A DNA stretch of 64,000 nt from Hymenobacter canadensis (GTDB lineage: Bacteria > Bacteroidota > Bacteroidia > Cytophagales > Hymenobacteraceae). Positions 24,716-57,736 of the stretch are shown here, in pieces. Position 1 is the first letter of the stretch, and each line of letters opens with the position of its first letter. The position numbers and the translations under genes are program-made. The stretch lies in assembly GCF_027359925.1 (NCBI RefSeq), contig NZ_CP114767.1:3224001-3288000 (forward strand). Reading direction: 5' to 3'. The notes beneath the pieces are model-generated. The model worked only from the letters and a program-made list of their open reading frames with translations. It was not told where the DNA came from and ran no database searches.

Positions 24716-24811
24716 CCGTCATGCTGAGCTTGCCGAAGCATCTCTACCGCCGCACTAATCCAATTGGTGCAATAAAGCGGTAGAGATGCTTCGGCAAGCT
24801 CAGCATGACGG
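24716..24811. repeat. GTCATnCnGAGC-family palindrome, copy 1 (35-bp perfect arms)
   Basis: 24716-24750 is the exact reverse complement of 24777-24811, with a 26-nt loop. It lies between the ATP-grasp gene start and the amidohydrolase stop, both on the minus strand. The unit begins CCGTCATGCTGAGC. Confidence 0.9.
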
Positions 24812-24819
24812 ACTTATTC

Positions 24820-26118
24820 TTACTTTTTCATCGCCAGGTAATCGGCGGCCAGCGCGGCCAGGGTCCGGACGCCCAGCGTGAGGCCGCTTTCGTCTACGAA
24901 AAAGCCGGGCGTGTGGTGCGGGGCGGTGGTAGCGGCGTCCTTGCCTTTGGGCATGCCACCCACAAACAGAAAGAAGCCGGGCACTTTCTCCTGGTAGTAG
25001 GCGAAGTCCTCGGCTCCGGTGACGGCCTTCTGCAGTACCACGTGTTCGGGGCCGGCCACGCGGCGCAGGGTGGGCAGCATCTGCTCGGTGAGGCGCACTT
25101 CGTTGAACGTCACAGGAGCGTAGTTCACGATGTCGACCTCGGCGGTGGCGCCGGCGCTTTCGGCAATGTTGGTGGCCGTCCGGCGCACGGCGGCCCAGAT
25201 CTGCTGCTGCATTTCCTTGTTAAGGGTGCGGATGGTGCCGGTCAGCTCCACCTGCTCCGGGATGATGTTGTTGCGCACCCCGCCGTGCACCATGCCCACG
25301 GTCAGCACGGCCGCGTCCTGGGTCAGCTCGGTCTGGCGGCTGATGATGGTCTGCAGACCCAGAATGATCTGCGCTGATGTCACCACGGGGTCCACGGCCA
25401 GCCACGGATACGCGCCGTGCGCCGACTTGCCCTTCACCTTGATGGTAAACACGTCCGACGAGGCCATCGTCCCCTCGGGCCGGTACTTGAGCGTGCCCAC
25501 CTTGGTCTGGGCGTTGATGTGCACGCCGAAGATGGCGTCGACCTTGGGGTTATCCAGCACGCCTTCCTGCACCATCAGCTTGGCGCCGCCCGTCACGCCG
25601 GGCAGGGAGCCTTCCTCGGCGGGCTGGAAGATGAACTTCACGGTGCCGCTGAGGTCTTTTTTCATCTCACTCAGCACGTTGGCGGCGCCCAGCAGCATGG
25701 CCACGTGGGTGTCGTGGCCGCAGGCGTGCATCACGCCCACTTCCTGGCCGTTGTACTGGGTGCGGGCCTTGGAGGCGAAAGGCAGCGTGGGGCTTTCCGT
25801 CACGGGCAGACCGTCCATGTCGGCGCGCAGGGCCACCACGGGGCCGGGCTTACCACCACGCAGGATGCCCACCACGCCGGTGCGCGCCACGCCGGTCTGC
25901 ACTTCTAGGCCCAGCCGCTTCAGTTCCGCCGCAATGATGCCGGCCGTGCGGGTTTCCTGGTTGCCCAACTCGGGGTGCTCGTGCAGGTCGCGGCGCCAGG
26001 CAATCACCTGCTTTTCCTGCTGCGCGGCCAGCTTGGCAATGCGGGCATCGAGGGCGGCGTTTTGGGCGGACGCGGCCAGCGGCAGCGTGAGGGCAAGTAA
26101 GGAAAGCAGGCGCTTCAT
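24820..26118 (-). CDS. M20-family metallo-amidohydrolase (N-acyl-amino-acid/hippurate hydrolase type), exported
   Basis: A 432-residue protein beginning MKRLLSLLALTLPLAASAQ, a signal peptide. The frame is open to 26508 but only this start makes sense. Zinc ligands are visible in VMHACGHDTHVAM and in FIFQPAEEGSLPG, with an early HEHPELGNQETRTAG motif. The family dimerisation lid domain follows the catalytic half (KVKGKSAHGAYPWLAVDP). Such enzymes hydrolyse N-acyl or aminoacyl amides, and the signal peptide suggests a periplasmic role. A TACCTTTTG element (26149-26141, minus) 23 nt upstream is a possible promoter with one extra base. Confidence 0.94.
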   Translation of the reverse strand: MKRLLSLLALTLPLAASAQNAALDARIAKLAAQQEKQVIAWRRDLHEHPELGNQETRTAGIIAAELKRLGLEVQTGVARTGVVGILRGGKPGPVVALRADMDGLPVTESPTLPFASKARTQYNGQEVGVMHACGHDTHVAMLLGAANVLSEMKKDLSGTVKFIFQPAEEGSLPGVTGGAKLMVQEGVLDNPKVDAIFGVHINAQTKVGTLKYRPEGTMASSDVFTIKVKGKSAHGAYPWLAVDPVVTSAQIILGLQTIISRQTELTQDAAVLTVGMVHGGVRNNIIPEQVELTGTIRTLNKEMQQQIWAAVRRTATNIAESAGATAEVDIVNYAPVTFNEVRLTEQMLPTLRRVAGPEHVVLQKAVTGAEDFAYYQEKVPGFFLFVGGMPKGKDAATTAPHHTPGFFVDESGLTLGVRTLAALAADYLAMKK

Positions 26119-26257
26119 AAGAACAGGCTGAAATTGGCGGCAAAAGGTACAACACGCGCGGCGGAGTGCCCTGGCGTGGCGCGTGGTTTGTGGGCGTACC
26201 TGCGGAAACCAGACTTCAAGGGCACAGAAGGCTTCATGGTACACACCGGCCAGGCTG

Positions 26258-26265
26258 TACTTTTG
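26258..26265 (+). promoter_or_regulatory. -7 element TACTTTTG directly before the PAP2 start codon
   Basis: A perfect TAnnTTTG match that ends 4 nt before the ATG at 26270. If functional, transcription starts at or beside the start codon, so the mRNA would be leaderless. Otherwise the true start lies further downstream. Confidence 0.35.
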
Positions 26266-26269
26266 CCGC

Positions 26270-27043: not shown

Positions 27044-27073
27044 TCCCGGCACAACCGGAGGTCATGCTACATT

Positions 27074-27859: not shown

Positions 27860-27892
27860 GTGTGATTTGGTGGGAGTGGTGGCGTGTTTATT

Positions 27893-27995
27893 TTCTGTCA
27901 TCCTGAGCGTGCGAAGGACCTTATCACGGCTGAACTTCTGCTGAGCGGCTCTATTCCGGCATGACAAGGTCCTTCGTACGCTCAGGATGACAGAA
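27893..27995. repeat. GTCATnCnGAGC-family palindrome, copy 2 (30-bp arms, one mismatch)
   Basis: 27893-27922 pairs with 27966-27995 at 29 of 30 positions. The unit reads CTGTCATCCTGAGCGTGCGA and then AGGACCTT. It lies between the start of the SDR gene and the stop of the dioxygenase gene. Confidence 0.9.
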
Positions 27996-27998
27996 CCT

Positions 27999-28997: not shown

Positions 28998-29002
28998 CCG
29001 GT

Positions 29003-29821: not shown

Positions 29822-29834
29822 GCGCCCCTTTTGC

Positions 29835-29919
29835 TGTGGCACGGACTTCAGTCCGTAGCCCGTTGGTACCGCGCAATTTATCGGGCTTCAGCGGGCTACG
29901 GACTAAAGTCCGTGCCACA
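29835..29919. repeat. Palindromic repeat with self-complementary arms (28 bp, one mismatch)
   Basis: 29835-29862 pairs with 29892-29919 at 27 of 28 positions. Each arm also contains its own small palindrome (CGGACTTCAGTCCG in the left arm), so alternative cruciform or clover folds are possible. It lies between the WG-repeat gene and the TonB-like gene. Confidence 0.88.
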
Positions 29920-29989
29920 GGCTGATGCTACCCGCAATAATGCGGCGCGGAAAGCGTATTTTTCAGGAGCTATCTATTCCCTCCTGCCT

Positions 29990-31298: not shown

Positions 31299-32855
31299 AT
31301 GGTCTTCACGCCCAGCCCCATGCTTCTCAAGCTGCTTTACACCCGCGGCAGCCTGCACAATACGCCCGAAGGCGTGGCCTTCAGCATCAAGAACCGCCTC
31401 GACACGGTGCGCATCACCCGCATCGACCATGTGCAGCTGGATGGCGTGAAGATTGGCGTGGAGCAGATTGCGCTGGACCTGGGCGAGGGCGACGTGCGGC
31501 CCGCTACTACCTTCAACGCCGATAGTGCCGGCTTTACGCTGCCCGTGGGCCAGGCTGCTACCTTCCACCTCGCCACCGAGCACCTGAAAGAAGGCCTGCA
31601 TACCGTGCAGGTGCAGTTTGCCGCTGACCCCTTCGGCGACCTGAACGTGGAGGTGGAAGACGCCATTGCCACCCAACCCGACAAGCGCACCCGCATTCCG
31701 CGCTCCGACCAGGACGACTACTCCGACGACGCCATCCGGGCCCGGCAGCAGTTTGCCGAGGAATTTTCGGGGCAACAGTTCCAGCACCTCAAGCACTACT
31801 CCTTCGATGCCCACGACCTGCAGGGCAACTGTGAGCATTTCACGGGCGTGGCCCAGATTCCGGTGGGGCTGGCCGGCCCGCTGCACGTCAACGGCGAGCA
31901 TGCCCAGGGCGAGTTCCTGATTCCGATGGCCACCACCGAGGGCACGCTGGTGGCCAGCTACAACCGCGGCATTCAGCTCCTGAACCTGTGCGGCGGCGTG
32001 AAGTGCACCGTCATCGGCGACGCCATGCAGCGGGCCCCGGTGTTCGTGTTCGACGACGCCCGCGGCGCCCGCGACTTCGGCAAGTGGGTGGAGGAAAACA
32101 TGGACAAGATCCGGCCCGAGGCGGAAAGCACCTCCCGCATTGCCAAGCTGCAATACATCGACACCTACCTGAGCAACAAGTTTGCCTTCCTGCGCTTCAA
32201 CTACAGCACCGGCGACGCCGCCGGCCAGAACATGGTGGGCCGCGCCACCTTCGCTGCCTGCTCCTGGATTCTGGAGCACTACAAAGGCGCGCCCATCCGC
32301 CACTTCTACCTCGAATCCAACTTCGCCACCGACAAAAAAGCCTCCCAGATCAACGTGATGCGCACCCGCGGCAAGCGCGTGGTGGCGGAGGCCGTTATCA
32401 AGCGCGACATTCTGCAGCAGCGCATGCGCGTGACGCCCGAGCAGCTGGCCTACCACGGGCAGGTCAGCAACGTGGGCGCCTTCCTGAGCGGGGCCAACAA
32501 CAATGGCGCGCACTCGGCCAACGGCATCACGGCCCTGTTCATCGCCACCGGTCAGGATGTGGCCAACGTGTCGGAGTCGTCGGCCGGGGTGCTGTACTCC
32601 GAAGTCACGGCCGAGGGCGACCTGTACATCAGCATCACCATCCCGAGCCTGATTGTAGCCACCCACGGCGGCGGTACCGGCCTGGCCACCCAGAACGAGT
32701 GCCTGCGCATGCTGAGCTGCGTAGGCCGCGGCACCGTCAATAAGTTTGCCGAAATAGTGGCCGGCGTGGTGCTGGCCGGCGAGCTGAGCCTGGGCTCCGC
32801 CATCAGCAGCTCCGACTGGGTGAGCAGCCACGAGCAATACGGCCGCAACCGGTAA
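31299..32855 (+). CDS. Hydroxymethylglutaryl-CoA reductase (class I type) with an extra N-terminal domain
   Basis: Converts HMG-CoA to mevalonate, the committed step of the mevalonate isoprenoid pathway, in the cytoplasm. The catalytic part (about 145-518) shows the family residues: Glu214 in MATTEGTLVASY, Lys346 in ATDKKAS, Asp420 in TGQDVANV and His511 near the C-terminus. NYSTGDAAGQNMV (303-315) corresponds to the DAMGMN cofactor motif. Residues 1-125 are not part of the reductase fold as I know it and look like a beta-rich domain (AFSIKNRLDTVRITRIDHV). An alternative start is the ATG at 31320. No other mevalonate gene is adjacent. Confidence 0.93.
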   Translation: MVFTPSPMLLKLLYTRGSLHNTPEGVAFSIKNRLDTVRITRIDHVQLDGVKIGVEQIALDLGEGDVRPATTFNADSAGFTLPVGQAATFHLATEHLKEGLHTVQVQFAADPFGDLNVEVEDAIATQPDKRTRIPRSDQDDYSDDAIRARQQFAEEFSGQQFQHLKHYSFDAHDLQGNCEHFTGVAQIPVGLAGPLHVNGEHAQGEFLIPMATTEGTLVASYNRGIQLLNLCGGVKCTVIGDAMQRAPVFVFDDARGARDFGKWVEENMDKIRPEAESTSRIAKLQYIDTYLSNKFAFLRFNYSTGDAAGQNMVGRATFAACSWILEHYKGAPIRHFYLESNFATDKKASQINVMRTRGKRVVAEAVIKRDILQQRMRVTPEQLAYHGQVSNVGAFLSGANNNGAHSANGITALFIATGQDVANVSESSAGVLYSEVTAEGDLYISITIPSLIVATHGGGTGLATQNECLRMLSCVGRGTVNKFAEIVAGVVLAGELSLGSAISSSDWVSSHEQYGRNR

Positions 32856-32857
32856 AC

Positions 32858-32937
32858 GAGTAGCTGAGCAAGGGAGTAACTGAGTATCGTTCTGTCCTAC
32901 CCGACAGTTACTCAGTTACTCCCTTACTCAGCTACTC
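32858..32937. repeat. GAGTAGCTGAG / ACTCAGTTACTC palindromic repeat, copy 1
   Basis: 32858-32886 pairs with 32909-32937 at 28 of 29 positions. Further GAGTA units continue to about 32954. It is built of heptad-like units (AGTAACTG, AGTAGCTG) and starts 2 bp after the HMG-CoA reductase stop. A related repeat lies at 59439-59570. Confidence 0.85.
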
Positions 32938-32953
32938 TTTACTCAGCTACTCG

Positions 32954-33522: not shown

Positions 33523-33687
33523 CGGATTAGGGGGATTGGGCGGATTTTGTGGACGGCGCTAAACTGCCATAGCCTGCACTCCGCTTTAGCACAACGCAGG
33601 GAGGCTTGCCAACTGGCAAGCCTCTCCTGTTTTTTAGCTGAACATAAATCGACTACAAAATCCGTCTAATCCGCCAGAATCCGTGAT
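33523..33687. repeat. Composite inverted-repeat element, copy 2 (165 bp)
   Basis: Same design as 23657-23824: a left part with CGGATTAGGGGGATTGGGCG and CGGATTTTGTGG, an internal hairpin GAGGCTTGCC (33601-33610) with its complement (33615-33624) and a T-run, and a right part with CTACAAAATCCG, TCTAATCCGCC and AATCCGTGAT. The last base of the element is the first base of the homogentisate dioxygenase stop codon. Confidence 0.85.
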
Positions 33688-36120: not shown

Positions 36121-36125
36121 TAACC

Positions 36126-36219
36126 GTCATCCTGAGCTTGCGAAGGACCTTATTACGTTGAGGTTACTATCGAACGATTAGTGCTGACGTGATAAGGTCC
36201 TTCGCAAGCTCAGGATGAC
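36126..36219. repeat. GTCATnCnGAGC-family palindrome, copy 3 (28-bp perfect arms)
   Basis: 36126-36153 is the exact complement of 36192-36219, and the stem can extend a few bases into the loop. The unit reads GTCATCCTGAGCTTGCGAAG. It lies between the convergent transglutaminase-like and S41 protease genes. Confidence 0.9.
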
Positions 36220-36237
36220 AGTCTTTCTCATCTACCC

Positions 36238-46148: not shown

Positions 46149-46180
46149 CGGAGTAGCAACACAACGGATATGACGCCATA

Positions 46181-46281
46181 GAACGTCATTCCGAGCGGAG
46201 CGAGGAATCTCGCGTGCTGACGCAGGAATAGTAATCCAACGTCAGCACGCGAGATTCCTCGCTCCGCTCGGAATGACGTTC
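46181..46281. repeat. GTCATnCnGAGC-family palindrome, copy 4 (42-bp perfect arms)
   Basis: 46181-46222 is the exact complement of 46240-46281, with a 17-nt loop. The unit begins GAACGTCATTCCGAGCGGAG. It is nearly the same as 57640-57736 except for a 6-bp block changed in both arms. It separates convergent genes. Confidence 0.92.
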
Positions 46282-46293
46282 TGCTTTTACTAC

Positions 46294-47055
46294 CTAATGC
46301 GCCGCGCTAGCCCATTGCCGCACTTTCTCGCCAAACGCTCGTAGCAGCGTCGCCACCTCGTCGGGGGCTTCGTAGGGCAGCAGGTGGCCGGCGGCGGCTA
46401 TTATTTCCAGCGGCGTGCCTTCAGGCAGCAGCGGCAGCGTTTCCAGCCCGTGCACCGACGGCGACATCACCGCGTCCTGGTCGCCGGCCAGGATGGTGCA
46501 GGGCACGCGCACCTCACACATCCGAGCCACCAGGTTTTCGCGGCTGCCATGCAGCAACCAGGCATCCCAGGCGGCTTTGGAGCTGCGCAGGTTGTCGGCG
46601 AGGATGTGCTGGCGCAGGGCAGGCGCCAGCGGCCGGGCGGTGATGTGCTGAAGCGTATTTTCTGCTTCGACGCGCTGGCCCCAGGCGTGCAGGCTGGCTT
46701 TGCGGTCGGCGTCAGTCATAGGCTCGGGCGTGGGCGGCGATGGGCTGAGCAGGGCCACGCCCCGCAGACCGGCCGGCTGCCGGGCCGCTAGGGCCAGCGC
46801 AATTTTGCCGCCCATGCTGTGGCCTACCAGCACGTAATCCGTCAGTTGATGCGCCGCCACAAAAGCGGCCACTTCGTCGGCGTAGGCATCCACAGTATAG
46901 CCGCCGGCTGGCGCCGGCGCATCGCCGAAGCCGCCCAGGTCGGGAGCTAGCACGGCGTAGTCGGGGGCCAGGCGCTCGGCCACGGCCTGAAACGCGCGGC
47001 CGGAACCGGCCCAGTAGTGGAGGTAGAGAAAGGTAAGTGGAGTGGCTTTCGGCAT
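46294..47055 (-). CDS. Alpha/beta-fold hydrolase
   Basis: A 253-residue cytoplasmic hydrolase. The oxyanion region is LTFLYLHYWAGSGRAFQAV. The nucleophile elbow VLVGHSMGGKIALAL has Ser80. The acid is probably in ILAGDQDAVMSPS, and the histidine is in IIAAAGHLLPYEAPDE. This is the pattern of the MhpC/esterase-haloperoxidase group. Unusually, Tyr-Trp replaces the common HG after the first strand (LHYWAGSG). The ATG at 47055 (MPKATPL) is preferred to the distal ATG at 47187, whose additional residues are unlike the family. The substrate is unknown. Confidence 0.9.
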   Translation of the reverse strand: MPKATPLTFLYLHYWAGSGRAFQAVAERLAPDYAVLAPDLGGFGDAPAPAGGYTVDAYADEVAAFVAAHQLTDYVLVGHSMGGKIALALAARQPAGLRGVALLSPSPPTPEPMTDADRKASLHAWGQRVEAENTLQHITARPLAPALRQHILADNLRSSKAAWDAWLLHGSRENLVARMCEVRVPCTILAGDQDAVMSPSVHGLETLPLLPEGTPLEIIAAAGHLLPYEAPDEVATLLRAFGEKVRQWASAAH

Positions 47056-47195
47056 AGGAAACGGTGCTGAGAGAATAGTAGCAAACGGCCGCGGCCGCGC
47101 TGCCCCTGTATACTGCTGGCTGGCGCCGGCGTTGCTCAGGCCCATCTTTTCTGACCGACCTGCTGGCGGGCACAAGACAGGGGCCATGTATCCAC

Positions 47196-47229
47196 AAAAA
47201 AATACCCGGCCCTGATGGGGCCGGGTATT
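47196..47229 (-). terminator. Terminator of the 47277 T9SS gene
   Basis: AATACCCGGCCC (47201-47212) pairs perfectly with 47218-47229 around a 5-nt loop. The A-tract at 47196-47202 gives the T-run on the minus strand. Confidence 0.86.
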
Positions 47230-47276
47230 CTGTTAGCCGAAAGCTACCGGGCTGCATTGGCAGCGGTAGCACCTCG

Positions 47277-49706
47277 CTATTTGGTGAGCACCAGCTGACG
47301 GATGGAATACTCCGAGCCGGACTGCACGCGCAACACATACATGCCGGTAGCCAGGCCCGACAGGTCGAGCTTGTTTACGGCGTTGTCCTGCACGGTAGCG
47401 CGGTGCACCACTTGGCCGAGGGTGTTGGTAACCTGCACCTGCATAGCGCCTTTGGCTTTGGCGTCGCGGATATCCAGCGTTACCTGGCCCTGGCTGGGGT
47501 TCGGGAACATGGAGATAGAGCGGGCCAGCGCCGGGCTGTTGTTGGACAGTACACGCGAGCTGAACCCAACCTCGATGCCGAGGCGCGTCTGGAGCGTCGT
47601 TGTGTTCACGTCTGACCAGGCACCGGCAGCGGTGGTCTGGAAGAAGAAAGTACCCGAGCGAAGGGGGTTTTCCACCTGATAGCCGATGGCAACGCCACCC
47701 GAAACTTCTCTCAGGCCAACGAAGAACGTACCGTTAACTGTCACCCCGGTTACAGGCACCGTCACGACACCCGCCGCCGTAGGACGGTTGAGAGTTGGTG
47801 AAGTGAAGACTACCGTGCCGGGCGTGCCCGTAGCGCTGGCATTCAGTATCACCACCTGATAAGTGGAGGTGGTCGTCGGGATGGCCAGGAAGTTCAGCTT
47901 CACCTCGCCGATGTTAGCCGACGAGTTGATGTTGTATTTCACGGCCAGGGTGCCGCCGGGAGTAGTGCTCGAAACACTAACGCTGGCCGTTACAGGCTGG
48001 CTGTCGTTGAGGTAAGAAATGCTATTGGCCGTTACCAGCTGCGCGAAGGTCTGCGTGTTGTTGGTATTCAGACCATCAGGCTGCAGCGTTACCGTGAGCG
48101 TATTGGCTCCGATAGCAGCCGGCGTGTAGCTCGTGAACGTTACGATAGCCGAGGCCCCTACGGCAAGGGTTGGAATAATTTTGGCATCTGCAAAAGTCGT
48201 GGCCCCCGTTACGTTCAGGGTCACGGGCACGTTGGTCAGAGCAGTGGAGCCGTTGTTGCGAATCACAGCCTGTACTACCTGCGGAGCAGATACCGGAGCC
48301 TTGCCAACCGAGTAGATAGCCTGTACTGCAGCATCGTTAGCTGGTAACGAGAAGGCACAAATACCGAACTGACCGGTTGGCGTGGTGCCGAAGCTCCACA
48401 CGCGGGCGTAAATGGTGGAACCTGGCGTCAGGCCGCTGGCCGTCGTCGAGGAGAAGAGGCCGGTGGCGTCGTCGCTGCAGGCCACTTCCGTGAGCGTGCC
48501 GCAAGCACCCGTGTACAATACCAGGCCCGTATCCTCTACCAGCGAACCAGTAACGGCGCTGGTGGTTACCGTAACGGCACCGGAAGCCGGCACGACCATG
48601 CTGTACCACACGTCGTTGCTGACCGGCGTAGCGGCCACGAAACAGCCAGTGCCCGTGGAGTTGGGAGCCGGCACGCCCGTGGAGGCCGTGGCACCCAAGT
48701 TGGTGGTGGTGGTAGGCGTGCAGCTGGTGCCAACAGTCAGGGCCGTGGCCGTGGCGCAGTTATCATTGCCGGGGGCCACTACAGTGGTGCTGAACGAGGT
48801 AGTAGCAACAGGCGACGTCGTGCTGCCCGAGCAGTTACCAGTGATGGTTACGGTGTAAGCCGTGCCGGAGGTCAGGCCCGTCAGGCTGATAGGCGAAGCC
48901 GTGGGAGCTGGGGTAACGGTAGTGGCCGTGCCGCCCGCGGGCGTATACGTGACGGTGTAGCTAGTGCTGGCCGCCCCTGGCGTGAAAGCAATCTGGGCCG
49001 AGGTAGGCGTAATGTTGCTGACCGTAATGCCCGTCACGGGTGGGCAGGACAGCGGCGCGAGGCCCGTGAGCTGGATGTTGGGCCGCAGCAGGCTAAGCGT
49101 GCCGGCGGTGGTTGGCGGGTTGGTATCGGTGGCCCACAGCTGCGTGCGGTTGTTGCCGGTGCCGGTGGAAGAGTAGCGGAAGGCTTTCCCGGCAATAGGC
49201 TCGTTGCCGGCGCCAGTGGCATTGGTTTCCACAATTACTTCCAGGTTGGAAGTACCGTTGTAAGCGAAGGGCGCCGAAAGAGGCACGCTCACCCAGGTAT
49301 CAGGCGTAAACGAAGCCGCCGGAATCGTGGCGTCATACACCAGCGTGGCCCCTGTTTCCTCGGCCGCTACCGTGGTGGCCGCCGCAAACGTAGCATTGGC
49401 AACGGTTTTGAGGTAGATTTTGGTGGGCGTTGCGCCGGGCGTTGCCACTGCACTCACATAGAACCCGACACGCGTAAGGTTGCCGCTGGTGCCAATTTCG
49501 GCTGCCGTGTAGATCATGGCGCTACGCTCGTAGCCAAAATACGTAGCCAAAGGGCGGCGCGAAGTTCCCCCGTTGGGGTTGCCGGCGGGCACTTCAATCT
49601 GCGCCCAGGCCGCAGGGGCCATTAAGAGGGCCGTAGCCAGGGCTACCAGCCGCGGCCGCAGCTTTGCAGAAAGCCAGCCGGTTGAGGAGTAATGAGTTGC
49701 CGTCAT
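47277..49706 (-). CDS. Secreted fibronectin-III protein with T9SS sorting domain
   Basis: An 809-residue protein. Residues 1-35 form a signal peptide with an unusually long hydrophilic start (MTATHYSSTGWLSAKLRPRL then LVALATALLMAPAAWAQ). A first beta domain spans about 36-210. A fibronectin type III repeat is at about 215-295 (PPVTGITVSNITPTSAQIAF, SPISLTGLTSGTAYTVTI). A pre-peptidase-like beta domain follows at about 305-460 (NDNCATATALTVGTSC, VSNDVWYSMVVPASGAVTV). A CARDB-like region lies at about 465-565 (VQAVIRNNGSTALTNVPVTL). The C-terminal T9SS type A domain (about 735-809, SISMFPNPSQGQVTLDI, GMYVLRVQSGSEYSIRQLVL) is complete. No catalytic motif is visible, so a surface adhesin or structural role is likely. 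Confidence 0.88.
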   Translation of the reverse strand: MTATHYSSTGWLSAKLRPRLVALATALLMAPAAWAQIEVPAGNPNGGTSRRPLATYFGYERSAMIYTAAEIGTSGNLTRVGFYVSAVATPGATPTKIYLKTVANATFAAATTVAAEETGATLVYDATIPAASFTPDTWVSVPLSAPFAYNGTSNLEVIVETNATGAGNEPIAGKAFRYSSTGTGNNRTQLWATDTNPPTTAGTLSLLRPNIQLTGLAPLSCPPVTGITVSNITPTSAQIAFTPGAASTSYTVTYTPAGGTATTVTPAPTASPISLTGLTSGTAYTVTITGNCSGSTTSPVATTSFSTTVVAPGNDNCATATALTVGTSCTPTTTTNLGATASTGVPAPNSTGTGCFVAATPVSNDVWYSMVVPASGAVTVTTSAVTGSLVEDTGLVLYTGACGTLTEVACSDDATGLFSSTTASGLTPGSTIYARVWSFGTTPTGQFGICAFSLPANDAAVQAIYSVGKAPVSAPQVVQAVIRNNGSTALTNVPVTLNVTGATTFADAKIIPTLAVGASAIVTFTSYTPAAIGANTLTVTLQPDGLNTNNTQTFAQLVTANSISYLNDSQPVTASVSVSSTTPGGTLAVKYNINSSANIGEVKLNFLAIPTTTSTYQVVILNASATGTPGTVVFTSPTLNRPTAAGVVTVPVTGVTVNGTFFVGLREVSGGVAIGYQVENPLRSGTFFFQTTAAGAWSDVNTTTLQTRLGIEVGFSSRVLSNNSPALARSISMFPNPSQGQVTLDIRDAKAKGAMQVQVTNTLGQVVHRATVQDNAVNKLDLSGLATGMYVLRVQSGSEYSIRQLVLTK

Positions 49707-50163
49707 GCAGAAAAAGGAAAAGAGATGGATGAAAGGAAAAACGAGAAGTGTCCAACGAAACAGCCATTGTGCCTCAATGACGATTTAAGTTACCTTCTTT
49801 TCCTGCACTGCCAACTTTTTTCCTGTATTATCATAATGTAAAAATCAGAATACAGGGGAATATCCATATTGCCGATCCGCTATTGCTCTTCCCGAACCTA
49901 TGTAACCAACCTGATTTCTCAACATTTTGACATACAGACGACTACCTGCTTTGCCTCCAGTTCATTAGAATGGGCACACACTATAACAGCGTGTGCTCAT
50001 CCTGATGCTGGCCCAACCAACGAGGCCAACCCTGCTTCATCGGGGGGGCTGCTTCACCCACACCCCCCAAAGAAGCGGTAGAAACGCTTTTACCAACTCA
50101 GTATATAGACACAGGCCATAGCTTCCCGGTCGTTCTTTCCCCAAGTATTTTCAAAATTTCTAT
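49707..50163. other. AT-rich intergenic region between two T9SS genes
   Basis: About 460 bp without a believable gene. The part near 49740-49900 is AT-rich and should contain the promoter of the 47277 gene (read leftwards). I found no perfect TAnnTTTG element. A G-run and a C-run (50041-50048, 50062-50069) flank a 13-nt spacer. The 70-codon frame at 49869-50081 has no recognisable domain, no good start context and a composition unlike genes here, so I do not call it. Confidence 0.5.
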
Positions 50164-50208
50164 CAACAAAAGAGCCGGCCTCCCAAAGGAAAGCCGGCTC
50201 TTTTGTTG
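50164..50208 (-). terminator. Terminator of the 50235 T9SS gene
   Basis: A perfect 16-bp stem: CAACAAAAGAGCCGGC (50164-50179) with 50193-50208, with a 13-nt loop and U-rich arm. Confidence 0.88.
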
Positions 50209-50234
50209 AGCAGAGTAGCTTAGCAGCCGACCCG

Positions 50235-52547
50235 TTAACGCTTGATTATGCGCTGAGTCTGGGCTTTGCCGGCAGGTGTTACCACGCGCAGCATGTAGGT
50301 ACCGCTCTGCACACCCGACAGATCCTGCAGTTCCAGGTCGTTGGTACCGCTGGTCAGCTCTACGTTGCGTTGCAGCACCACGCGGCCCGTCAGATCCAGA
50401 AGTTGCAGCTGGCCCTTGCCGGCCGCCGCCGATTGCACCGTCAGGCGCACCTCGCTCTGGAAGGGGTTGGGGTAGGCTTCCATCCGGGCCTCAGCAGTAG
50501 CCGAGCCGGAGAAGCTCAGCACCTTAGGACCGTAGAAGTTCTCCTTGCCATCCACATCAATCTGGCGCAGACGGTAGTAGCGGATACCGCCTTTATTGGC
50601 TTCGGTGTCGAGGTAGCGGTAGCGCAGCAGGCGGTTGCTGTTGGCATCCTGACTCGGAATGAACGCAAGAGTGCGGAACGTGCGGCCGTCGGTGGACACT
50701 TGCACTTCGTAGCCGCGGTTATTCTGCTCGCTCACCGTTTCCCAGGTGATTTCAGCGTTGGTACCGATGCGCTTGGCCCCGAAAGCCGTGAGCGTAACCG
50801 GCAGCGGCTCCGTAGCCTCACTCAGCGTGAAGGTGGCAAAGGAAGTGATGTTGCTCTTTGTCAACTCGTTGGTGGTGGTATTGATATTGTCGCGGCCCAG
50901 CTGGCCGAACACGTCACCTGACGAAGTCGATACGAACAGGGCCAGATCTTGCTCGTTTACCGTCTGGGAGTTAGGGTCCAGGTTGGTCGTTTCGTTGTTG
51001 AGGTAGCGGAACACCATATTAGCACGCAACCCGCCGTTGTTGGTTTGCTGGTCAGCCGGACGGACCCCAAATACGCGGCGGATGCTAGGGTTATTGTTTG
51101 CACCGTTATTGATAGTAGCGTAGTTCCCACCCGTGTTGCGGGTTATCGTTACTACACCAGGATTGTTAGGGGCAAGGAAGGTCATAGTCATACCGATGTT
51201 GCTAAAATCCTGCGGCACACCCAGTACCACCCCCTGCGAAGTTTTGACAATACCCCGCAGATAGGAGGTTTCGCTTTCACCCAGCAAACGGGCAGCGGGA
51301 ACCGTGGCAACACCTGTCCCAGCCGAGTTAGCCAACTCTACGAAAGAGGTGGTTACGCTGGAAATGTTGGTGGTGAGAATGCCGTTGATAAAACGCAGGG
51401 TGCCACCAGGCTGCACTGCGAAGTTGGAAATCAGAGTCTTCACACCGCCGCCATCAATTTCCACGTTTACCAACCCAGATGCCGAACCACTAATGGACTG
51501 AGCGGTACCGGCAAAGCTAATGGTGGTATTTTCGCGCTGAATGAAGCTATCCTGCAGGTTGCTGAAGTCACGATACACTTCCAGACGGCCTACTACTAAC
51601 CGTGCAATAGAGCGTCGCAATTGGTCGGTACCGCGCATGATAAAGTCACGGGTTTGAGCCGGGCCGGAGGTTGAGTTATTATAGCCGGGTACTGTCGTGA
51701 TAACAGTAGAGAAAGTACCATCCGGGTTCTTGATACTGGTTGGTACTTGCGTATCCGGTTTGATGGCGTTGCTGTAGATGTTCGGATAGGAAACCGTGGA
51801 GCCGGAGGGGAAGTCGGGAATGGTGGCGTCCGTAGTGGCCGTAGGTACGCCCTGCGTCCAGTTGGCGGCGTCAAACCAGTTGTCGTTCTTGCCGCCGGTC
51901 CAGGTCGTGGACGTTGGAGGCTCTGCTGGGCGCACACCTTCTACGGTAAAACTAGCAGTGTAGAAAGTTTGTGGAGGATCTTCTTTAGTGAAAGCAGCAC
52001 CAGTTGTTGAATTACGGCCGTTAGCACTAAATCTGACGTCCACAAAATACCTTCCTGCCGGCAATACTGTATTAGGAGTTAGCCCTGCCAGAAGGTTGAT
52101 ATTCGATGTGATATTCGAAAAAGTTTTAGCTCCGTTGGTGTTATCAGTCAGCGGTAGATTGATGGAGCGGAGTCCACCGGTGAATGTGGCACCACTGGCG
52201 TCCGATACCTCGTAGAAAAGCAACCCACCACGGACGACATCCGGAGCAGTTTCAGTAGTACGAAGAGTACCACCATTGAGTACTAGGATCGTGTTGAAGT
52301 TGCTTACGTTGAAAACACCAAGGTCCTTTGTATCGAATCCTTGTGGCAGCGTACCACCTTGGCCAATGAAAGCTTCATTGCCATTGCCACGGTCAATAAT
52401 GATAGTGGAGCCGGTAATGCTGCTGTTAGCCTGTGCCTGCGCCGTGCGGGTAGAGCCAAGGCTTATAAACAGGACCAGCAGCGGCAGTAACCCCTGCCAG
52501 GCACGGCCAAACAGCCGGAGATTGTGAGTAAGAGTTTTAGGTTTCAT
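50235..52547 (-). CDS. Large secreted protein with T9SS sorting domain
   Basis: A 770-residue protein starting MKPKTLTHNLRLFGRAWQGL, with a signal peptide ending RTAQAQ at about 40. The ATG at 52685 would add a 46-residue non-signal stretch. The central part is beta-rich (FNTILVLNGGTLRTTETAPD, then TWTGGKNDNWFDAANWTQGV and a long region with PGGTLRFINGILTTNISSV). The WTGGKNDNWFDAANWT segment resembles the domain found in many T9SS cargo proteins before beta-helix-like repeats. The C-terminus holds a discoidin-like region (ITWETVSEQNNRGYEVQVST) and a T9SS type A domain (MEAYPNPFQSEVRLTVQ, ending TQRIIKR). No enzyme residues are recognised. Confidence 0.83.
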   Translation of the reverse strand: MKPKTLTHNLRLFGRAWQGLLPLLVLFISLGSTRTAQAQANSSITGSTIIIDRGNGNEAFIGQGGTLPQGFDTKDLGVFNVSNFNTILVLNGGTLRTTETAPDVVRGGLLFYEVSDASGATFTGGLRSINLPLTDNTNGAKTFSNITSNINLLAGLTPNTVLPAGRYFVDVRFSANGRNSTTGAAFTKEDPPQTFYTASFTVEGVRPAEPPTSTTWTGGKNDNWFDAANWTQGVPTATTDATIPDFPSGSTVSYPNIYSNAIKPDTQVPTSIKNPDGTFSTVITTVPGYNNSTSGPAQTRDFIMRGTDQLRRSIARLVVGRLEVYRDFSNLQDSFIQRENTTISFAGTAQSISGSASGLVNVEIDGGGVKTLISNFAVQPGGTLRFINGILTTNISSVTTSFVELANSAGTGVATVPAARLLGESETSYLRGIVKTSQGVVLGVPQDFSNIGMTMTFLAPNNPGVVTITRNTGGNYATINNGANNNPSIRRVFGVRPADQQTNNGGLRANMVFRYLNNETTNLDPNSQTVNEQDLALFVSTSSGDVFGQLGRDNINTTTNELTKSNITSFATFTLSEATEPLPVTLTAFGAKRIGTNAEITWETVSEQNNRGYEVQVSTDGRTFRTLAFIPSQDANSNRLLRYRYLDTEANKGGIRYYRLRQIDVDGKENFYGPKVLSFSGSATAEARMEAYPNPFQSEVRLTVQSAAAGKGQLQLLDLTGRVVLQRNVELTSGTNDLELQDLSGVQSGTYMLRVVTPAGKAQTQRIIKR

Positions 52548-52783
52548 TCTAAAAAAGGGACGAATTTTGAGAGAATCGAACCATTTCGTGTCGAATTGAG
52601 ACAGGGTTCGAGCGGCGTATACGGAGTTGCAGGAATAAGGCCGACATTTTGCATATAAAAAATAATATCCCTGTAAAATATCCATAAATAGCCCTTGTTT
52701 ATGCGCTCATTCAGACGCGAAAAGGCCCTCTCCTCTCTCCAGCAGTACAATAAGCTATTCCTACTATTCATTTATTTCCCACT
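52548..52783. other. AT-rich leader region of the 50235 gene
   Basis: This 236-bp stretch has no coding signature. It is AT-rich, especially at 52635-52775, as expected for the minus-strand promoter and 5' leader. No perfect TAnnTTTG element was found. Confidence 0.5.
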
Positions 52784-52975
52784 TTAGTGCACGACGCTAT
52801 ATGGCGGTACGGTCAGCGCTTTCTTAAAACGGGAAAGCTCAACATCTAACACGTCGTGCACGCTCACCCGAATTTTGTTGGCGAGCTGGGTAATGGGCAG
52901 GTCGTTGCTGTCGGTGCCGAAAGGCCGCGCTGTTTCTTCGCCAGCCCTCTCCAGGTCCAGAGCAGCACCCCGACA
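52784..52975 (-). pseudogene. 3' remnant of a bestrophin-family gene
   Basis: A minus-strand frame ending at TAA (52786-52784) reads LERAGEETARPFGTDSNDLP, ITQLANKIRVSVHDVLDVEL and then SRFKKALTVPPYSVVH. The stretch P-F-G-T-D-x-N-D-L-P with the following amphipathic helix is the C-terminal signature of bacterial bestrophin-type chloride channels. The frame is closed by an in-frame stop about 20 codons upstream and has no start codon, and all membrane segments are absent. It is therefore a remnant of about 60 codons. The assignment is by eye. Confidence 0.52.
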
Positions 52976-53062
52976 ACCCGCTACTCACCACACTTCATCT
53001 TCCGTGAAACCGGCTTCCTTTTAGCCAGCGCAGGGCCCACTTTCGCCGCTGGCGAGGCGCAC

Positions 53063-53092
53063 AAAAAAGCCGCGTCGGAAATCCGGCGCGGC
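53063..53092 (-). terminator. Terminator of the M16 peptidase operon
   Basis: GCCGCGTCGG (53069-53078) pairs with CCGGCGCGGC (53083-53092) with one G-T mismatch and a 4-nt loop. The six A at 53063-53068 give a T-run on the minus strand. Confidence 0.82.
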
Positions 53093-53116
53093 GTTCTGCG
53101 GGTAGGCTTGGGGGCG

Positions 53117-54565
53117 CTACAGCGGCTTCTTGCGGGAAGCCTGGAACTTTTTGATCTGCGGGTCGATGATTTTCCGGTCGCCGACTACCACGATGGTCAT
53201 GGCTTCGGGGCGCACGTACTTGCGCGCCGTTTCGCTGACCTGTTGGGGCGTCACGGCATTGATGTTTTTCACCTGCTCGGTCAGGTAGGAGTCGGGCAGG
53301 CCGTGCAGGTCGAGGGTGTTGAGCTGGCCGATGATGCCCGCCGGCGTGGAGTTGCGCAGCACAAACAAGCCCGACTCGTAGTTCTGGATGCCTTTCAGCT
53401 CTTCGGCCGAAGGCGGGGTTTTCTGCAGCTGCTCAATCTCATACACGATTTCTTTGAGCGAATTGCCGGTTTCCTGGGTGGTCACGTCGGCGTTCTGGCT
53501 CCAGTTGCCGGTGCGGTAGTGGGTTTCGAGGTAGCTGTAGGGCGAGTAGGTGTAGCCCTTATCCTCGCGGATGTTGCGCGTGATGCGCGAGCCGAAAGAG
53601 CCGCCCAGCAGCGAGTTCATCACCCGCACCCGCATATAATCGGGGTGCGAGGGGTCCACGACGGGCAGGCCGATGACGATGGTGGACTGCGGTGCCCCCG
53701 GCCGGTCCAGGGTCGTGACGTCGGGGCGGGTCTGGGATTTGGCTATTTCAATGCGCGGGGCCGGGCCCTGGGGCATGGTGGCCCAGGCGCGGGTAATGGC
53801 CTCGCGCACAGCCCCGTTGTCGAACTTACCGGCTACGTACACGCTGGTGCGCTGGGCGCCGTACTGGGTCTGGTAGAAGGCTTTCACCTGCGCCATCGTC
53901 AGGGCGTCGATTTCGGCATCGGTGGGGATGGGGCGGCCGTAGGGGTGGCTGCCGTAGAGGGCCTGGCTGAACTTCTGGCGGGCCTGAGTACCGGGCTGGG
54001 CGCGGGCCAGGTTCATCTGGCGCTTGAAATCGGCCTTGATGCGGGCCAGCTCGCTCTCGGGCAGCGCCGGGCGCTGCACCACCTCGGCCAGGAGCGCCGC
54101 CAACTCGGGAGCAAACTCGCTCAGGCATGAAGCGTAGATCAGGGTCTGGTCCTGGCCCACCGAAACATTGAGCCAGCCTCCCATCCGGGCCACTTTGTCG
54201 GCGAACTGCGCGCCCGTCAGCGTAGCAGTGCCTTCGCTCATGAGCTTGCTCAGCAGGTCGGCCACGCCGACTTCGGTAGCGGCTTCATGCACGTTGCCGG
54301 CCTGGATGGCCACCAACATCGTGGTTTTGGGCACCTGGCCGTAGGGCACCAGTTTCGCCTTGAGGCCGTTGGGCAACGTGAATTCCTCTTTGGCCGGCAG
54401 CTCAAAGTCGCGGGGGGTGCCGCCGGCGGGCGGAGTTTCGCGGGGTGCGGCCGGGGCCACTGCTGCCGCCGGAGCGGGCTTGGGTTTCGGCTTGGTTTGG
54501 GCCAGGGCAGCCGGGGCGGCGGTAGCCAGGGCCACGCAGAGCAGCCCGAAGTGAAGTGGTTTCAT
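53117..54565 (-). CDS. M16-family peptidase, catalytically inactive partner subunit
   Basis: A 482-residue protein with a signal peptide (1-22) and a Pro/Ala/Lys-rich linker (KPKPKPAPAAAVAPAAP). The M16 fold is clear (FTLPNGLKAKLVPYGQVPKT, HPYGRPIPTDAEIDAL, LLGGSFGSRITRNIREDKGY). The zinc motif HxxEH is missing: the aligned segment reads VADLLSKLMSEG. Such subunits form heterodimers with an active M16 subunit and help bind substrate, as in mitochondrial processing peptidase and the Sphingomonas M16 pair. It lies 17 bp after the active-subunit gene and ends the operon at a terminator. It is expected to be periplasmic. Confidence 0.93.
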   Translation of the reverse strand: MKPLHFGLLCVALATAAPAALAQTKPKPKPAPAAAVAPAAPRETPPAGGTPRDFELPAKEEFTLPNGLKAKLVPYGQVPKTTMLVAIQAGNVHEAATEVGVADLLSKLMSEGTATLTGAQFADKVARMGGWLNVSVGQDQTLIYASCLSEFAPELAALLAEVVQRPALPESELARIKADFKRQMNLARAQPGTQARQKFSQALYGSHPYGRPIPTDAEIDALTMAQVKAFYQTQYGAQRTSVYVAGKFDNGAVREAITRAWATMPQGPAPRIEIAKSQTRPDVTTLDRPGAPQSTIVIGLPVVDPSHPDYMRVRVMNSLLGGSFGSRITRNIREDKGYTYSPYSYLETHYRTGNWSQNADVTTQETGNSLKEIVYEIEQLQKTPPSAEELKGIQNYESGLFVLRNSTPAGIIGQLNTLDLHGLPDSYLTEQVKNINAVTPQQVSETARKYVRPEAMTIVVVGDRKIIDPQIKKFQASRKKPL

Positions 54566-54582
54566 GGCGTAGTCTTCGTGGG

Positions 54583-56013
54583 TTAGCTTTTGGCCAGCGG
54601 GTTCACAATCAGCAGGGTGCGGTTGGTGGGCCGCAGGTATTCCTGCATGGTGCGCTGCATGAGGGCGGGCGTCACCTTACGGAACTCGGCCTCCAGCCGG
54701 TTGATGCGACCGGGGTCGTTGTCGAACAGCGCAAACGAGGCCAGCATATCGGCGCGGCCGAAGTTGTCGGAACCCGAAAGCTGGTCGTAGAGGCTGGAGC
54801 GCAGCTTCACCACGGCCAGATCCAGCGTGGCCTGGTCGATGCCGCCCTTGGCCAAGCGGTTGATTTCCTGGTCGAGCACACTTACCACCGAGTCGGCTTT
54901 CACCGACTGGTCGTAGATCAGGTCGCCCATCCAGAGCATGGGGCCGGAGTAGTTGAAGGCGTTGCCGAGGTAGTTGATGCCGCCGTTCACGTTGTCGGAG
55001 TAGCCGCGCTTCTGCACCAGGGCCTGGTAGAGGCGGCTGTCTTTGCCCTGCAGCAAAATCTGGTCGAGCAGGATGAGGGCGTAGTACTCCGGCGTGTTGC
55101 GGTCGGGCATGTGGTAGGCGAAGGCCAGGGCGGGCTTGGTGGCCAGCTTGTCGTCTTTGGTGAAGCGCTGCTCTTTCTCCTGGCGGGGCTCCGAAATGTC
55201 GGGCTTGGGCGGCTGCGGGGCGCTGGGAATGTTGGCGAAGTACTTCTGCACCCAGGCTTTGGCTTCGGCCGGCTCGAAGTCGCCGACCACGGCCAGGGCC
55301 GCGTTGCCGGGGGCGTAGTAGGTTTTGAAGAACTGCTGGGCATCGGCCAGGGTGGCCGCGTCGAGGTCTTTCAGGTCGCCGTAGAAGTTGTGGGCGTTGT
55401 TCCAGTTCTGGTTGGCTTTCTGGGGCATATCCAGCCACGGAAAGCCGCCATAGGGCGCGTTCAGCACGTTCACGCGCACCTCGTTTTTCACCACGCCCTG
55501 CTGGTTGGCCACGTTGGCCTGCGTGATGGCCAGCCCGCGCATGCGGTCGGCTTCAGCCCACAGCATAGTTTCCAGCTTGTGGCTGGGCACCACCTCAAAG
55601 TAGTTGGTGAAATCGAAGCGGGTGGAGCCGTTGAGGATGCCGCCGTTTTTCTGAATCAGCTGAATGAACTCCATCTTGCCCAGGTTCTGGGAGCCCTGAA
55701 ACATCAGGTGCTCAAACAGGTGAGCGTAGCCGGTCCGGTCGCGGGGCTCGTTGCGGAAGCCCACGTTGTAGTAGGCTGCCACGGTAGCCGTGGGGGCGGT
55801 ATGGTCGGGCGAGAGCACCACTTTCAGCCCGTTGGGCAGCGTGTAGTACTCCACCGGAATCTGGAAGGCGGCGGCCGGCGCGGGGGCAGCGGCAGGTGCA
55901 GCGGCCGGGGCGGGCGCCGTCACAACGGCCGTGGCTTTGGGGCTGCAGGCATGCAGCCCCAACAGCCCGGCCAGCCCCAGCAGATAGTGGCGGCCGGAAA
56001 ATCGGTTCTTCAT
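54583..56013 (-). CDS. M16-family zinc metallopeptidase, active subunit, lipoprotein
   Basis: A 476-residue protein with a lipoprotein signal (lipobox LGLHAC, Cys23) and an Ala/Pro linker. The inverted zinc motif is His98-Leu-Phe-Glu101-His102 (GYAHLFEHLMFQG), with the distal ligand Glu178 in VVKNEVRVNVL. The C-terminal half (PALAFAYHMPDRNTPEYYAL, GINYLGNAFNYSGPML) forms the second M16 domain. It should act with the 53117 product as a two-component peptidase cleaving unfolded proteins or peptides in the envelope. Being the first gene of the operon, it sets expression of both. The leader before its ATG is CU-rich. Confidence 0.95.
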   Translation of the reverse strand: MKNRFSGRHYLLGLAGLLGLHACSPKATAVVTAPAPAAAPAAAPAPAAAFQIPVEYYTLPNGLKVVLSPDHTAPTATVAAYYNVGFRNEPRDRTGYAHLFEHLMFQGSQNLGKMEFIQLIQKNGGILNGSTRFDFTNYFEVVPSHKLETMLWAEADRMRGLAITQANVANQQGVVKNEVRVNVLNAPYGGFPWLDMPQKANQNWNNAHNFYGDLKDLDAATLADAQQFFKTYYAPGNAALAVVGDFEPAEAKAWVQKYFANIPSAPQPPKPDISEPRQEKEQRFTKDDKLATKPALAFAYHMPDRNTPEYYALILLDQILLQGKDSRLYQALVQKRGYSDNVNGGINYLGNAFNYSGPMLWMGDLIYDQSVKADSVVSVLDQEINRLAKGGIDQATLDLAVVKLRSSLYDQLSGSDNFGRADMLASFALFDNDPGRINRLEAEFRKVTPALMQRTMQEYLRPTNRTLLIVNPLAKS

Positions 56014-56170
56014 AGGAGAGAATAAGATAGGGTGACGAACAGGTGGAAAACGCCGTCAACCTACACAATCCCGGGAAGAAAATACAATATTCCGCTATGG
56101 AAGAAAACGCGGCCTGAGCGAAGTGCAAGCATCTAGCAGAAAGCCCATTGAGCATACCTCACCGCCCAAC

Positions 56171-56208
56171 AAAAAAACCCCGGCAACATCTGGTGCTGCC
56201 GGGGTTTT
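56171..56208 (-). terminator. Terminator of the 56255 glycosidase gene
   Basis: AAAACCCCGGCA (56174-56185) pairs perfectly with 56197-56208. The A-tract from 56171 gives the T-run on the minus strand. Confidence 0.82.
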
Positions 56209-56254
56209 GAAAGGTGCGGGTATCGGTGCGCGCGGCCAGCAATGGCGCGCGCAC

Positions 56255-57589
56255 CTACTTCTTCACTTTAAGCGTGGCGGGGCGGTTGGTGAATTCGAAC
56301 ATCTCGCCGTGGGGCATGATGGTAATCTGGCCGAACTCGCGGATGAGCATCTTGTAGCTCTCCCCCACCGGCCGGATTTTGCGGTCCAGGTCGTAGAGGC
56401 CGCAGGCGTTGACGGTGAGGCGCTTTTCGGCCAGGCTGATGTCCCAGTCCACTTGGTCGAGCAGGCTGTACCAGGTGAATCCCACCACCGGCACGCCGTC
56501 GTGGCGGATGCGCTGCACGTTCACCCACTGCTTCCAGAGCCAGCATTCGGCGTCTTTGGGGTTGAAGGTGTTCGTTTCGGTGTGCATCACGGGCTTGCGG
56601 TACCGCTCGTAGTACTGGCGTGTCATAGTATACCAGCCCAGCACGTCCTCGGCCTGGCAGATCTGGCCGTCGGGCTTGATAATCTTCTCGTTGCGGCCGT
56701 AGTAGTCGTTGCCCATGATCTGGTAGCCGGGCGGCTCGCCGGCCATAAACCAGTCGAGCTCCTGGCGGGTCAGGCCGTTATCGAGGCAGTAGAGCAGCAC
56801 TTCCGAGTCAAGCGGGTGGGCGTAGAGCAAATCCAGCGACAGAAACCGCAGCTTGTTGACCAGGCAGATTTCGGGCGTGGGCACGGCGCGCATCTCGTGG
56901 ATGTACTCGGCCGACTCGCTTTGCACGATGATGCAGTCGGGCCGCACCTTGGCAATCTGCTGGGTGCCCATGATGCTGGCCGCCGTGATGTGCTTGATGG
57001 CCGTCACGAAGGCGCGGTCGTCCTTAAGTTGCTCGTTCCAGATGCCGTCTTTGGCGGAGGCGCGGGCCGTCACGTAAATCTCATTGACGGGCGTGTAGAA
57101 GCGCACCCAGGGGTAGCGCCGCGCCACGGCCCCGCAGTACTCGGCGAAGTGCACTGGCAGCTCAGGATTCTGGAAGTTGCCCACCCAGTCGGGCACGCCA
57201 AAGTGCATCAGGTCTAGGATGGGCGTGATGCCCAGGCGCTGGATTTCGGCCATGGCGGCATCGGCAAACTCCCAGTCGAACTGGCCGGGGGCCTTGTGCA
57301 CGAGGTAGTACGGCAGGTTGTAGCGCAGCACCTTCAGGCCCATTTCCTTTACCAGCCCCAGGTCTTCCTTGTAGCGGTTGTAGTGGTCGGTTTCGGCCAG
57401 CAAATCGCGCCGAATGGTGCCGTTGGCGATGGTAGGGTACGAGCACTCGATGCCGGTGGCGAACATGAAGTTGCCCGCGTCGCCGGTAGGCAGGCCGGAG
57501 CCGTCGTGGCCGGCCGCGCCGCCGAACTGGTCGCCCTCGTAATGGCCGTCGCCGAAGGCTTCTTTGATGTGGGTGAGGAAAGACTTCAT
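56255..57589 (-). CDS. Clan GH-A glycoside hydrolase (GH1-like)
   Basis: A 444-residue TIM-barrel enzyme without a signal peptide. The acid/base glutamate lies in RFYTPVNEIYVTARAS (end of strand 4), and the putative nucleophile is in RKPVMHTETNTFNPKDAE. ATGIECSYPTIANGTIRRDL at the start and VGFTWYSLLDQVDWDISL near the end are typical of GH1-related proteins. It shares both motifs with the 9711 protein. Start MKSFLTHIKEAFGDG at 57589 is preferred. The first ATG (57646) lies in the palindromic repeat. It follows the GMC oxidoreductase gene, so it may act on glycosides oxidised by that enzyme, which is inference from context. Confidence 0.86.
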   Translation of the reverse strand: MKSFLTHIKEAFGDGHYEGDQFGGAAGHDGSGLPTGDAGNFMFATGIECSYPTIANGTIRRDLLAETDHYNRYKEDLGLVKEMGLKVLRYNLPYYLVHKAPGQFDWEFADAAMAEIQRLGITPILDLMHFGVPDWVGNFQNPELPVHFAEYCGAVARRYPWVRFYTPVNEIYVTARASAKDGIWNEQLKDDRAFVTAIKHITAASIMGTQQIAKVRPDCIIVQSESAEYIHEMRAVPTPEICLVNKLRFLSLDLLYAHPLDSEVLLYCLDNGLTRQELDWFMAGEPPGYQIMGNDYYGRNEKIIKPDGQICQAEDVLGWYTMTRQYYERYRKPVMHTETNTFNPKDAECWLWKQWVNVQRIRHDGVPVVGFTWYSLLDQVDWDISLAEKRLTVNACGLYDLDRKIRPVGESYKMLIREFGQITIMPHGEMFEFTNRPATLKVKK

Positions 57590-57639
57590 TTTTTGAAGCT
57601 GAAATGATGCGCCAGAAGGGTGCCTCATAATTAAGAAGA

Positions 57640-57736
57640 ACGTCATTCCGAGCTTGCCGAGGAATCTCGCGTGCTGACGCCTGAATAGTATTGCAACATC
57701 AGCACGCGAGATTCCTCGGCAAGCTCGGAATGACGT
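57640..57736. repeat. GTCATnCnGAGC-family palindrome, copy 5 (38-bp perfect arms), inside a gene cluster
   Basis: 57640-57677 is the exact complement of 57699-57736, with a 21-nt loop. The unit begins ACGTCATTCCGAGCTTGCCG. It lies between GMC and glycosidase genes of the same orientation. Confidence 0.92.

Follow-up and report, generated by a model that had tools for sequence, protein, structure and literature searches.

Matching arms in the head-to-head REP-like dimers of Hymenobacter: probable spread as symmetrical units, with possible copying between arms

Five long intergenic palindromes in a 64,000-nucleotide stretch of the Hymenobacter canadensis genome (positions 3,224,001 to 3,288,000 of NZ_CP114767.1, hereafter the window) vary in sequence from one to the next, and within each of them the two arms nearly match. 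How do the arms stay alike? We lean, with moderate confidence, towards the view that the palindromes spread as symmetrical units and that, at fixed loci, one arm is occasionally copied from the other. Mirrored states at one locus are observed, and from them we infer the copying step. Genome positions below refer to the H. canadensis genome (G000, 5.09 Mb; G000:C1).

The palindromes, reported in an initial annotation of the window, are real: they rank first (I1-I5) among its 31 inverted pairs (25 listed). Their reported outer ends, GTCAT-n-C-n-GAGC, are exact, as the window contains 10 perfect copies of the 12-mer GTCATNCNGAGC, arranged as five inward pairs; with one mismatch allowed there are 11 matches, whereas 100 shuffles average 4.0 and never exceed 9. 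The reported arms of 28-42 bp and loops of 17-66 nt did not hold, since an inverted-repeat search gives arms of 36-51 nt and gaps of 1-28 nt; the lower arm and higher loop figures may, we would guess, come from ending an arm as soon as the pairing first fails. All five palindromes are dimers in which two units lie head to head; the units resemble repetitive extragenic palindromic (REP) sequences, begin 5'-(C/T)GTCATNCNGAGC... and are tagged CGTC or TGTC. No Rfam family reaches its gathering score in the window. The five dimers are given here with their RNA folds and, for the first three, with what lies at the corresponding sites of H. duratus BT646 (G006) and H. perfusus (G076), one genome being used per species.

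24713..24814, REP dimer 1: 38-nt arms (24713-24750 and 24777-24814) at 97%; head GCT, loop TTGCC, tail CTCTACCGC; RNA fold -81.8 kcal/mol, z -15.2; no dimer of this kind seen in G006 or H. perfusus at the corresponding sites.
27893..27995, REP dimer 2: 42-nt arms (27893-27934 and 27954-27995) at 88%; head CCT, loops GTGC and GTAC; RNA fold z -12.0; counterpart in G006 with GGAGC in both arms, none seen in H. perfusus.
36123..36222, REP dimer 3: 36-nt arms (36123-36158 and 36187-36222) at 94%; head CCT, loop TTGC; RNA fold z -15.6; G006 site without a dimer, H. perfusus gap with a GCT-type dimer.
46180..46282, REP dimer 4: 51-nt arms (46180-46230 and 46232-46282) at 94%; head TCC, loop GGAGC, tail CTCGCGTGCTGACG; a near-complete 103-nt palindrome, RNA fold z -19.8.
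57637..57739, REP dimer 5: 41-nt arms (57637-57677 and 57699-57739) at 98%; head TCC, loop TTGCC, tail CTCGCGTGCTGA; RNA fold z -15.2; outer head ending about 17 nt from the stop of the open reading frame 57753-59435 (minus strand).

As had been claimed, GGAGCG stands in both arms of dimer 4 (46181) and TTGCCG in both arms of dimer 5 (57640). On the dimer 4 side of the neighbouring gene, 19 congener loci (side deduced from the match strands) carry a dimer of another subtype in G015 and G017, a lone head in G007 and G012, and neither in the remaining 15.

The evidence for change passing from arm to arm begins with dimer 5 (the 57642 site, genome position 3281642). Relatives of the neighbouring protein gave 61 loci in named genomes, 57 of them Hymenobacter, and 36 of the 61 loci were inspected. 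A head lies within 330 nt behind the gene at eight of these; the four that align with G000 without gaps were used, and L200, L218, L245 and L254, which are arranged otherwise, were left out, so that the five rows compared were chosen because they could be aligned. These rows (G000, H. perfusus, H. duratus, BT190 and H. norwichensis) have the same junctions; a leader of about 50 nt is conserved, and the 93-nt dimer aligns without indels. In H. rigui, H. piscis, H. psychrotolerans and H. telluris (L199, L203, L205, L209), four of the six dimer-less species displayed, the same gap is occupied by a palindromic repeat of another kind (GTGCTTAGTGCCTAGTGCTTGG...), whose carriers are spread across the gene tree.

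Between G000 and H. duratus, seven mirrored pairs and one unmirrored difference are found over 38 arm positions. The corresponding mirrored and unmirrored counts are 6 and 8 for G000 with BT190, 5 and 7 both for G000 with H. norwichensis and for H. duratus with BT190, and 3 and 4 for H. perfusus with H. duratus. H. perfusus, the nearest of the inspected loci (92.2% over the gene, grouping with G000 at 100/99 support), is a heterodimer: it has four arm mismatches, one arm carrying the head type of G000 and the other that of H. duratus. Since the first head position is G in both arms of H. duratus, BT190 and H. norwichensis, the T head type is probably the derived one, and the change probably came into one arm first, as in H. 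perfusus, and into the other arm next, as in G000. Covariation over 46 pairs is 0.220 in these five related rows, against a shuffled mean of 0.128 (none of 500 shuffles as high) and 0.035-0.096 in six slid registers. Finally, the BT190 spacer fits those of G000, H. perfusus and H. duratus better when inverted (15-17 positions at the best of three shifts) than when read directly (10-11 of 21). The spacer is partly self-complementary, and the H. norwichensis spacer fits that of BT190 in neither sense.

Mirrored differences are not confined to this site. Both flanks of 41 of 60 G000 dimers (800 kb; the overlapping 3574155 and 3574173 are counted as two of the 60) are present in 1.2 Mb of G006, where six sites were flagged as occupied and five hold real counterparts, the sixth (3208860) being a 46-bp palindrome that was excluded from the orthologs. 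At three of the five the difference is mirrored: seven positions per arm at 3281642, the loop at 3251897, and, at 3148801, a loop length that differs by 10 nt in both arms. The other two sites (3140725 and 3056544) are taken up below. A second species pair, G008 and G022, has both flanks for three of four G008 dimers and two occupied sites, one (34545) with two mirrored loop differences as well as unmirrored ones and the other (156155) with a mirrored loop base and differing tails. Stretches of G003 and G026 gave a counterpart for none of six G003 dimers. The gap of the G000:C1:3140725 dimer, which is kept in G006, has other palindrome-like sequence in H. perfusus, G075 and G015 (L263, L267, L272) and is almost empty in G012.

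We also compared arms across G000, where 87 of up to about 290 dimers were analysed; 60 parse in both arms and 27 were dropped. Heads agree between arms in 57 of the 60. Loops agree in 35 of 57, against a mean of 13.9 (standard deviation 2.5, maximum 25) in 2,000 shuffles of right arms within head class. The annotation's statement that a change in one arm is mirrored in the other thus stands as a strong tendency and fails as a rule, as 25 of the 60 dimers differ in head, loop or returning stem. Two mirrored variants, sought as exact patterns, are each found genome-wide only once forward and once reverse, in the same dimer: GAAGCATCGCGNGTGCTGA in G006 and GTCATGCCGAGCNGAGCGAAGC in G000.

These observations suggest the following course of events. 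The whole dimer would be what multiplies, for the most part into gaps just downstream of stop codons, and it would seemingly do so without a Y1 transposase of the REP-associated tyrosine transposase (RAYT) kind; since head, loop and tail recur in sets, most copies would descend from a small number of symmetrical types. Once a dimer is fixed at a locus, one of its arms would occasionally serve as template for the other. Polymerase template switching between inverted arms is the likeliest mechanism, and it could also flip the spacer. Passages of PMC8604942 give arm homogenisation and spacer inversion as marks of template switching between inverted repeats. Together with those of PMC8794818 they concern yeast genes and RNA genes, and PMC8604942 cites an earlier analysis of short proteobacterial inverted repeats. 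Apparently shared with the template switching and quasipalindrome correction described there are arm homogenisation, multi-base compensatory change and inversion of spacer or loop. In the open-access library searched we found no paper that joins REP sequences with template switching or with gene conversion of inverted repeat arms. The hairpin-templated change or arm conversion proposed in the annotation accordingly gains support at some loci (mirrored orthologous differences, the heterodimer, the apparent spacer inversion, two mirrored variants unique in their genomes), and constant correction does not.

Several results weigh against copying between arms. At 3140725 the loop differs between G000 and G006 in one arm only, and at the 57642 site some comparisons are almost wholly unmirrored (mirrored and unmirrored counts of 0 and 5 for G000 with H. 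perfusus, 1 and 11 for H. perfusus with H. norwichensis, 1 and 8 for BT190 with H. norwichensis). The reverse order of change there, in which one H. perfusus arm was re-converted, takes an equal number of block events and can be read equally well. Places like the 57642 spacer, with up to two mismatches, occur six more times in G000, four times in G006 and nine times in G076; the spacer is thus of a recurring kind, and the whole dimer may have been replaced. Presence of a dimer at the site does not follow the gene tree (four changes for five species, shuffled mean 4.7). Agreement between tail classes across G000 is only moderate (32 of 57, shuffles giving 22.9 with standard deviation 3.1 and maximum 34), and the GAAGCATCGCG variant is also present in G000, once, within a lone unit. 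The remaining two tests used 76 dimers, 11 of the 87 lying outside 76-135 nt. Changes private to one arm, privacy being judged among the 76, make up 140 runs in 65 dimers, and mirrored private 11-mers are found in seven; arm-to-arm copying, if real, is therefore slower than point mutation and provides no constant correction. Of 152 arms, 99 resemble some arm of another dimer more than their own partner, 47 tie and six are closest to the partner; the test is weak because a minimum over 150 arms, which is biased low, is set against a single partner.

The alternative to which these points lend most weight, rather doubtful in our judgement but to be taken seriously, dispenses with arm copying: arms would match by descent from symmetrical master dimers, and switches at a locus would be ectopic gene conversion or re-insertion of whole dimers. 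The dominance of one-arm private changes, the close arms found in other dimers and the recurring kinds of spacer speak for it. Moreover, the interior at 3056544 is different throughout in G006 though one junction is the same, and no counterpart is recognised in G006 for 36 of the 41 dimers with both flanks (the 46-bp palindrome counted as none), so turnover is fast. On the other hand, the two mirrored variants have no second copy in their genomes and hence no present donor was found, H. perfusus holds one arm of each kind, and the origin of each new symmetrical master would still require a mirrored change.

If copying between arms does occur, a broader proposal may be made, plausible although we stop short of calling it probable: Hymenobacter REP dimers might be natural hot spots of replication template switching, in which a block changes in one arm, the other arm is rewritten and the spacer at times flips, so that new symmetrical subtypes arise and persist without a transposase, with H. 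perfusus as an intermediate. This bears on how REP families stay symmetrical and on where new subtypes arise. With a heterodimer between two homodimer states at one locus, copying from arm to arm can be tested directly, and in 18 species free of Y1_Tnp matches (below) it can be told from RAYT activity.

What are the units that multiply in this way? An arm is laid out as [C/T]GTC-ATNCN-GAGC-loop-GA-N'GN'A. Within it ATNCN pairs with N'GN'AT (5 bp); an opposed GA/GA step and GC/GC come next and enclose a loop that varies. A single arm would thus form a small hairpin of its own and both arms together a hairpin of about 80-120 nt. The head letters pair within the arm as CT/AG in 23, GT/AC in 19 and TC/GA in 14 of 60 left arms. 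GTC and AT belong to the search pattern and their presence is preset, but the base preceding GTCAT in 174 arms is C in 95 and T in 71 (166 together), with A and G in 4 each. Depending on the stem end chosen, the loop between GAGC and GA is 4-5 nt in 48 of the 60 left arms, 6 nt in one and at least 16 nt in 11. Tails fall into the classes CTC, CTT, CCT and a few others, with no CCA among the top classes.

Passages of Di Nocera, De Gregorio and Rocco (2013, PMC3733652) describe CGTC-tagged REPs with an unpaired CGTC (or TGTC/CCTC) at one end, a loop of 4-5 nt, a stem of 8-9 bp starting from AT, a short unpaired tail that is mostly CCA, and no dedicated transposase, the mover being unknown. Compared with that description rather than base by base with their consensus sequences, the Hymenobacter elements share the CGTC or TGTC at one end, the stem beginning AT (imposed here by the search pattern), the predominance of head-to-head dimers (homo- and heterodimers) with clusters rare, the siting close behind coding regions, Bacteroidetes among the host phyla, and the absence of linked transposase genes (here the Y1_Tnp class was checked). 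Unlike it, they have loops of at least 16 nt in 11 of 60 left arms, CTC, CTT or CCT tails in place of CCA, a stem broken by the opposed GA/GA step, and, in the window, arms of 36-51 nt that reach past the REP core. We regard the Hymenobacter element as a variant of this known type: a REP-like dimer with the CGTC tag.

The family is abundant and, within the order, concentrated in one genus. In all of G000, GTCATNCNGAGC occurs 295 times forward and 294 times reverse, whereas the reversed pattern occurs 5 and 3 times. The 800 kb around the window contain 61 forward and 59 reverse heads, which combine into 50 inward pairs; 45 of these measure 80-119 nt. Heads are present in all 61 Hymenobacter genomes searched, G000 included (61-1159 per genome); among 148 genomes of the order, more than 80 heads are found only in the 10 of Hymenobacter. 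In G015, among the matches listed, 29 of 31 neighbouring inward pairs (counted by eye) have the same head. A near-identical heterodimer of a short-loop and a long-loop arm recurs at four G000 loci (294576, 3609737, 3621004 and 3621660), which fits copying as units. Five dimers lie within about 4 kb at G000:C1:3618611-3622698 (L093), with one class of homodimer as well as short-loop/long-loop heterodimers; in G006 each of the five has its flanks but no recognised dimer.

Location raises a second alternative, namely that selection on a transcribed hairpin, a terminator or mRNA 3' end, fixes compensatory changes singly. By a crude gene model, 46 of the 60 G000 dimers in the 800 kb lie between unidirectional genes, 7 between convergent and 3 between divergent ones, and 4 in a gene (gap length shares of the three arrangements 57, 25 and 18%); the median distance behind the gene 3' end is 23 nt. 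T makes up 42-51% at positions 5-9 outside both ends, read outward, against 19% in the background. The RNA folds of all five window dimers are far more stable than those of shuffled sequence (z -12 to -20), and other palindromic repeats occupy the same gaps in other species. Location, T-rich ends and folds suggest a terminator-like or 3'-end role, or else an insertion preference. A terminator scan of window 45000-59000, limited to loops of 3-8 nt and at most 20 pairs, placed none of its 18 hits at a dimer. We consider such selection unlikely as the source of the matching arms: changes arrive as blocks, 4-7 positions at a time, in part within loops that would be unpaired in an arm folded by itself; the GCC variant is mirrored even though it disrupts the inner stem in each arm; and the location and T-richness may reflect an insertion preference.

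The annotation also raised spread by a transposase of the REP/RAYT type. Passages of Bertels and Rainey (2011, PMC3116915) describe REPINs as an inverted REP doublet that acts as a unit, has a foldable spacer and is tied to RAYTs. The Hymenobacter dimers share the inverted doublet as a hairpin unit and a spacer able to fold; unlike the REPINs described there they show no tie to a RAYT, and their end tag differs, being mostly [C/T]GTC rather than the GTAG-type tag of REPIN/RAYT systems. In searches confined to the Y1_Tnp family, G000 has four matches, three over the Pfam cut-off. All four genes (examined in G000 only) are bordered by palindromes of their own, different from the dimers, of which the nearest to a Y1 gene is about 0.66 kb away (L032:589-702). 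Eighteen of 61 Hymenobacter genomes, H. perfusus with its 352 heads among them, have no Y1_Tnp match at E 0.001 and yet carry 61-994 heads. The association of head number with a match is weak (median 330 in the 43 genomes with and 198 in the 18 without, Mann-Whitney p 0.045; Spearman 0.21, p 0.10). REPIN-like spread by a Y1 transposase acting in trans is therefore quite improbable, even granting the doublet organisation, the four matches with one dimer nearby, the higher median and the possibility that a Y1 gene has escaped the Pfam model by divergence or has recently been lost. The four Y1_Tnp matches (L031-L034, at G000:C1:3882004, 673259, 4320867 and 4238417) each have their own palindromic repeat, for example GTAGCCCAGGGCTTCAGCCCTGGGA and TGTAACGCGAAGTTCCACTTCGCG, and look like four separate RAYT-REP systems in one genome.

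The window contains further repeats. At 29834-29920 there is an inverted pair CTGTGGCACGGACTTCAGTCCGTAGCCCG whose end is like that of a GTAG-type REP, and another palindromic repeat (GAGTAACTGAGTAGCTGAGTA-like) is found at 32855-32940 and 59441-59567. Inverted repeats at 23657-23824 and 33530-33675, with GGATTTTGTAGTCGAC- and AATCCGTCTAATCCGCC-like arms, perhaps represent one more family.

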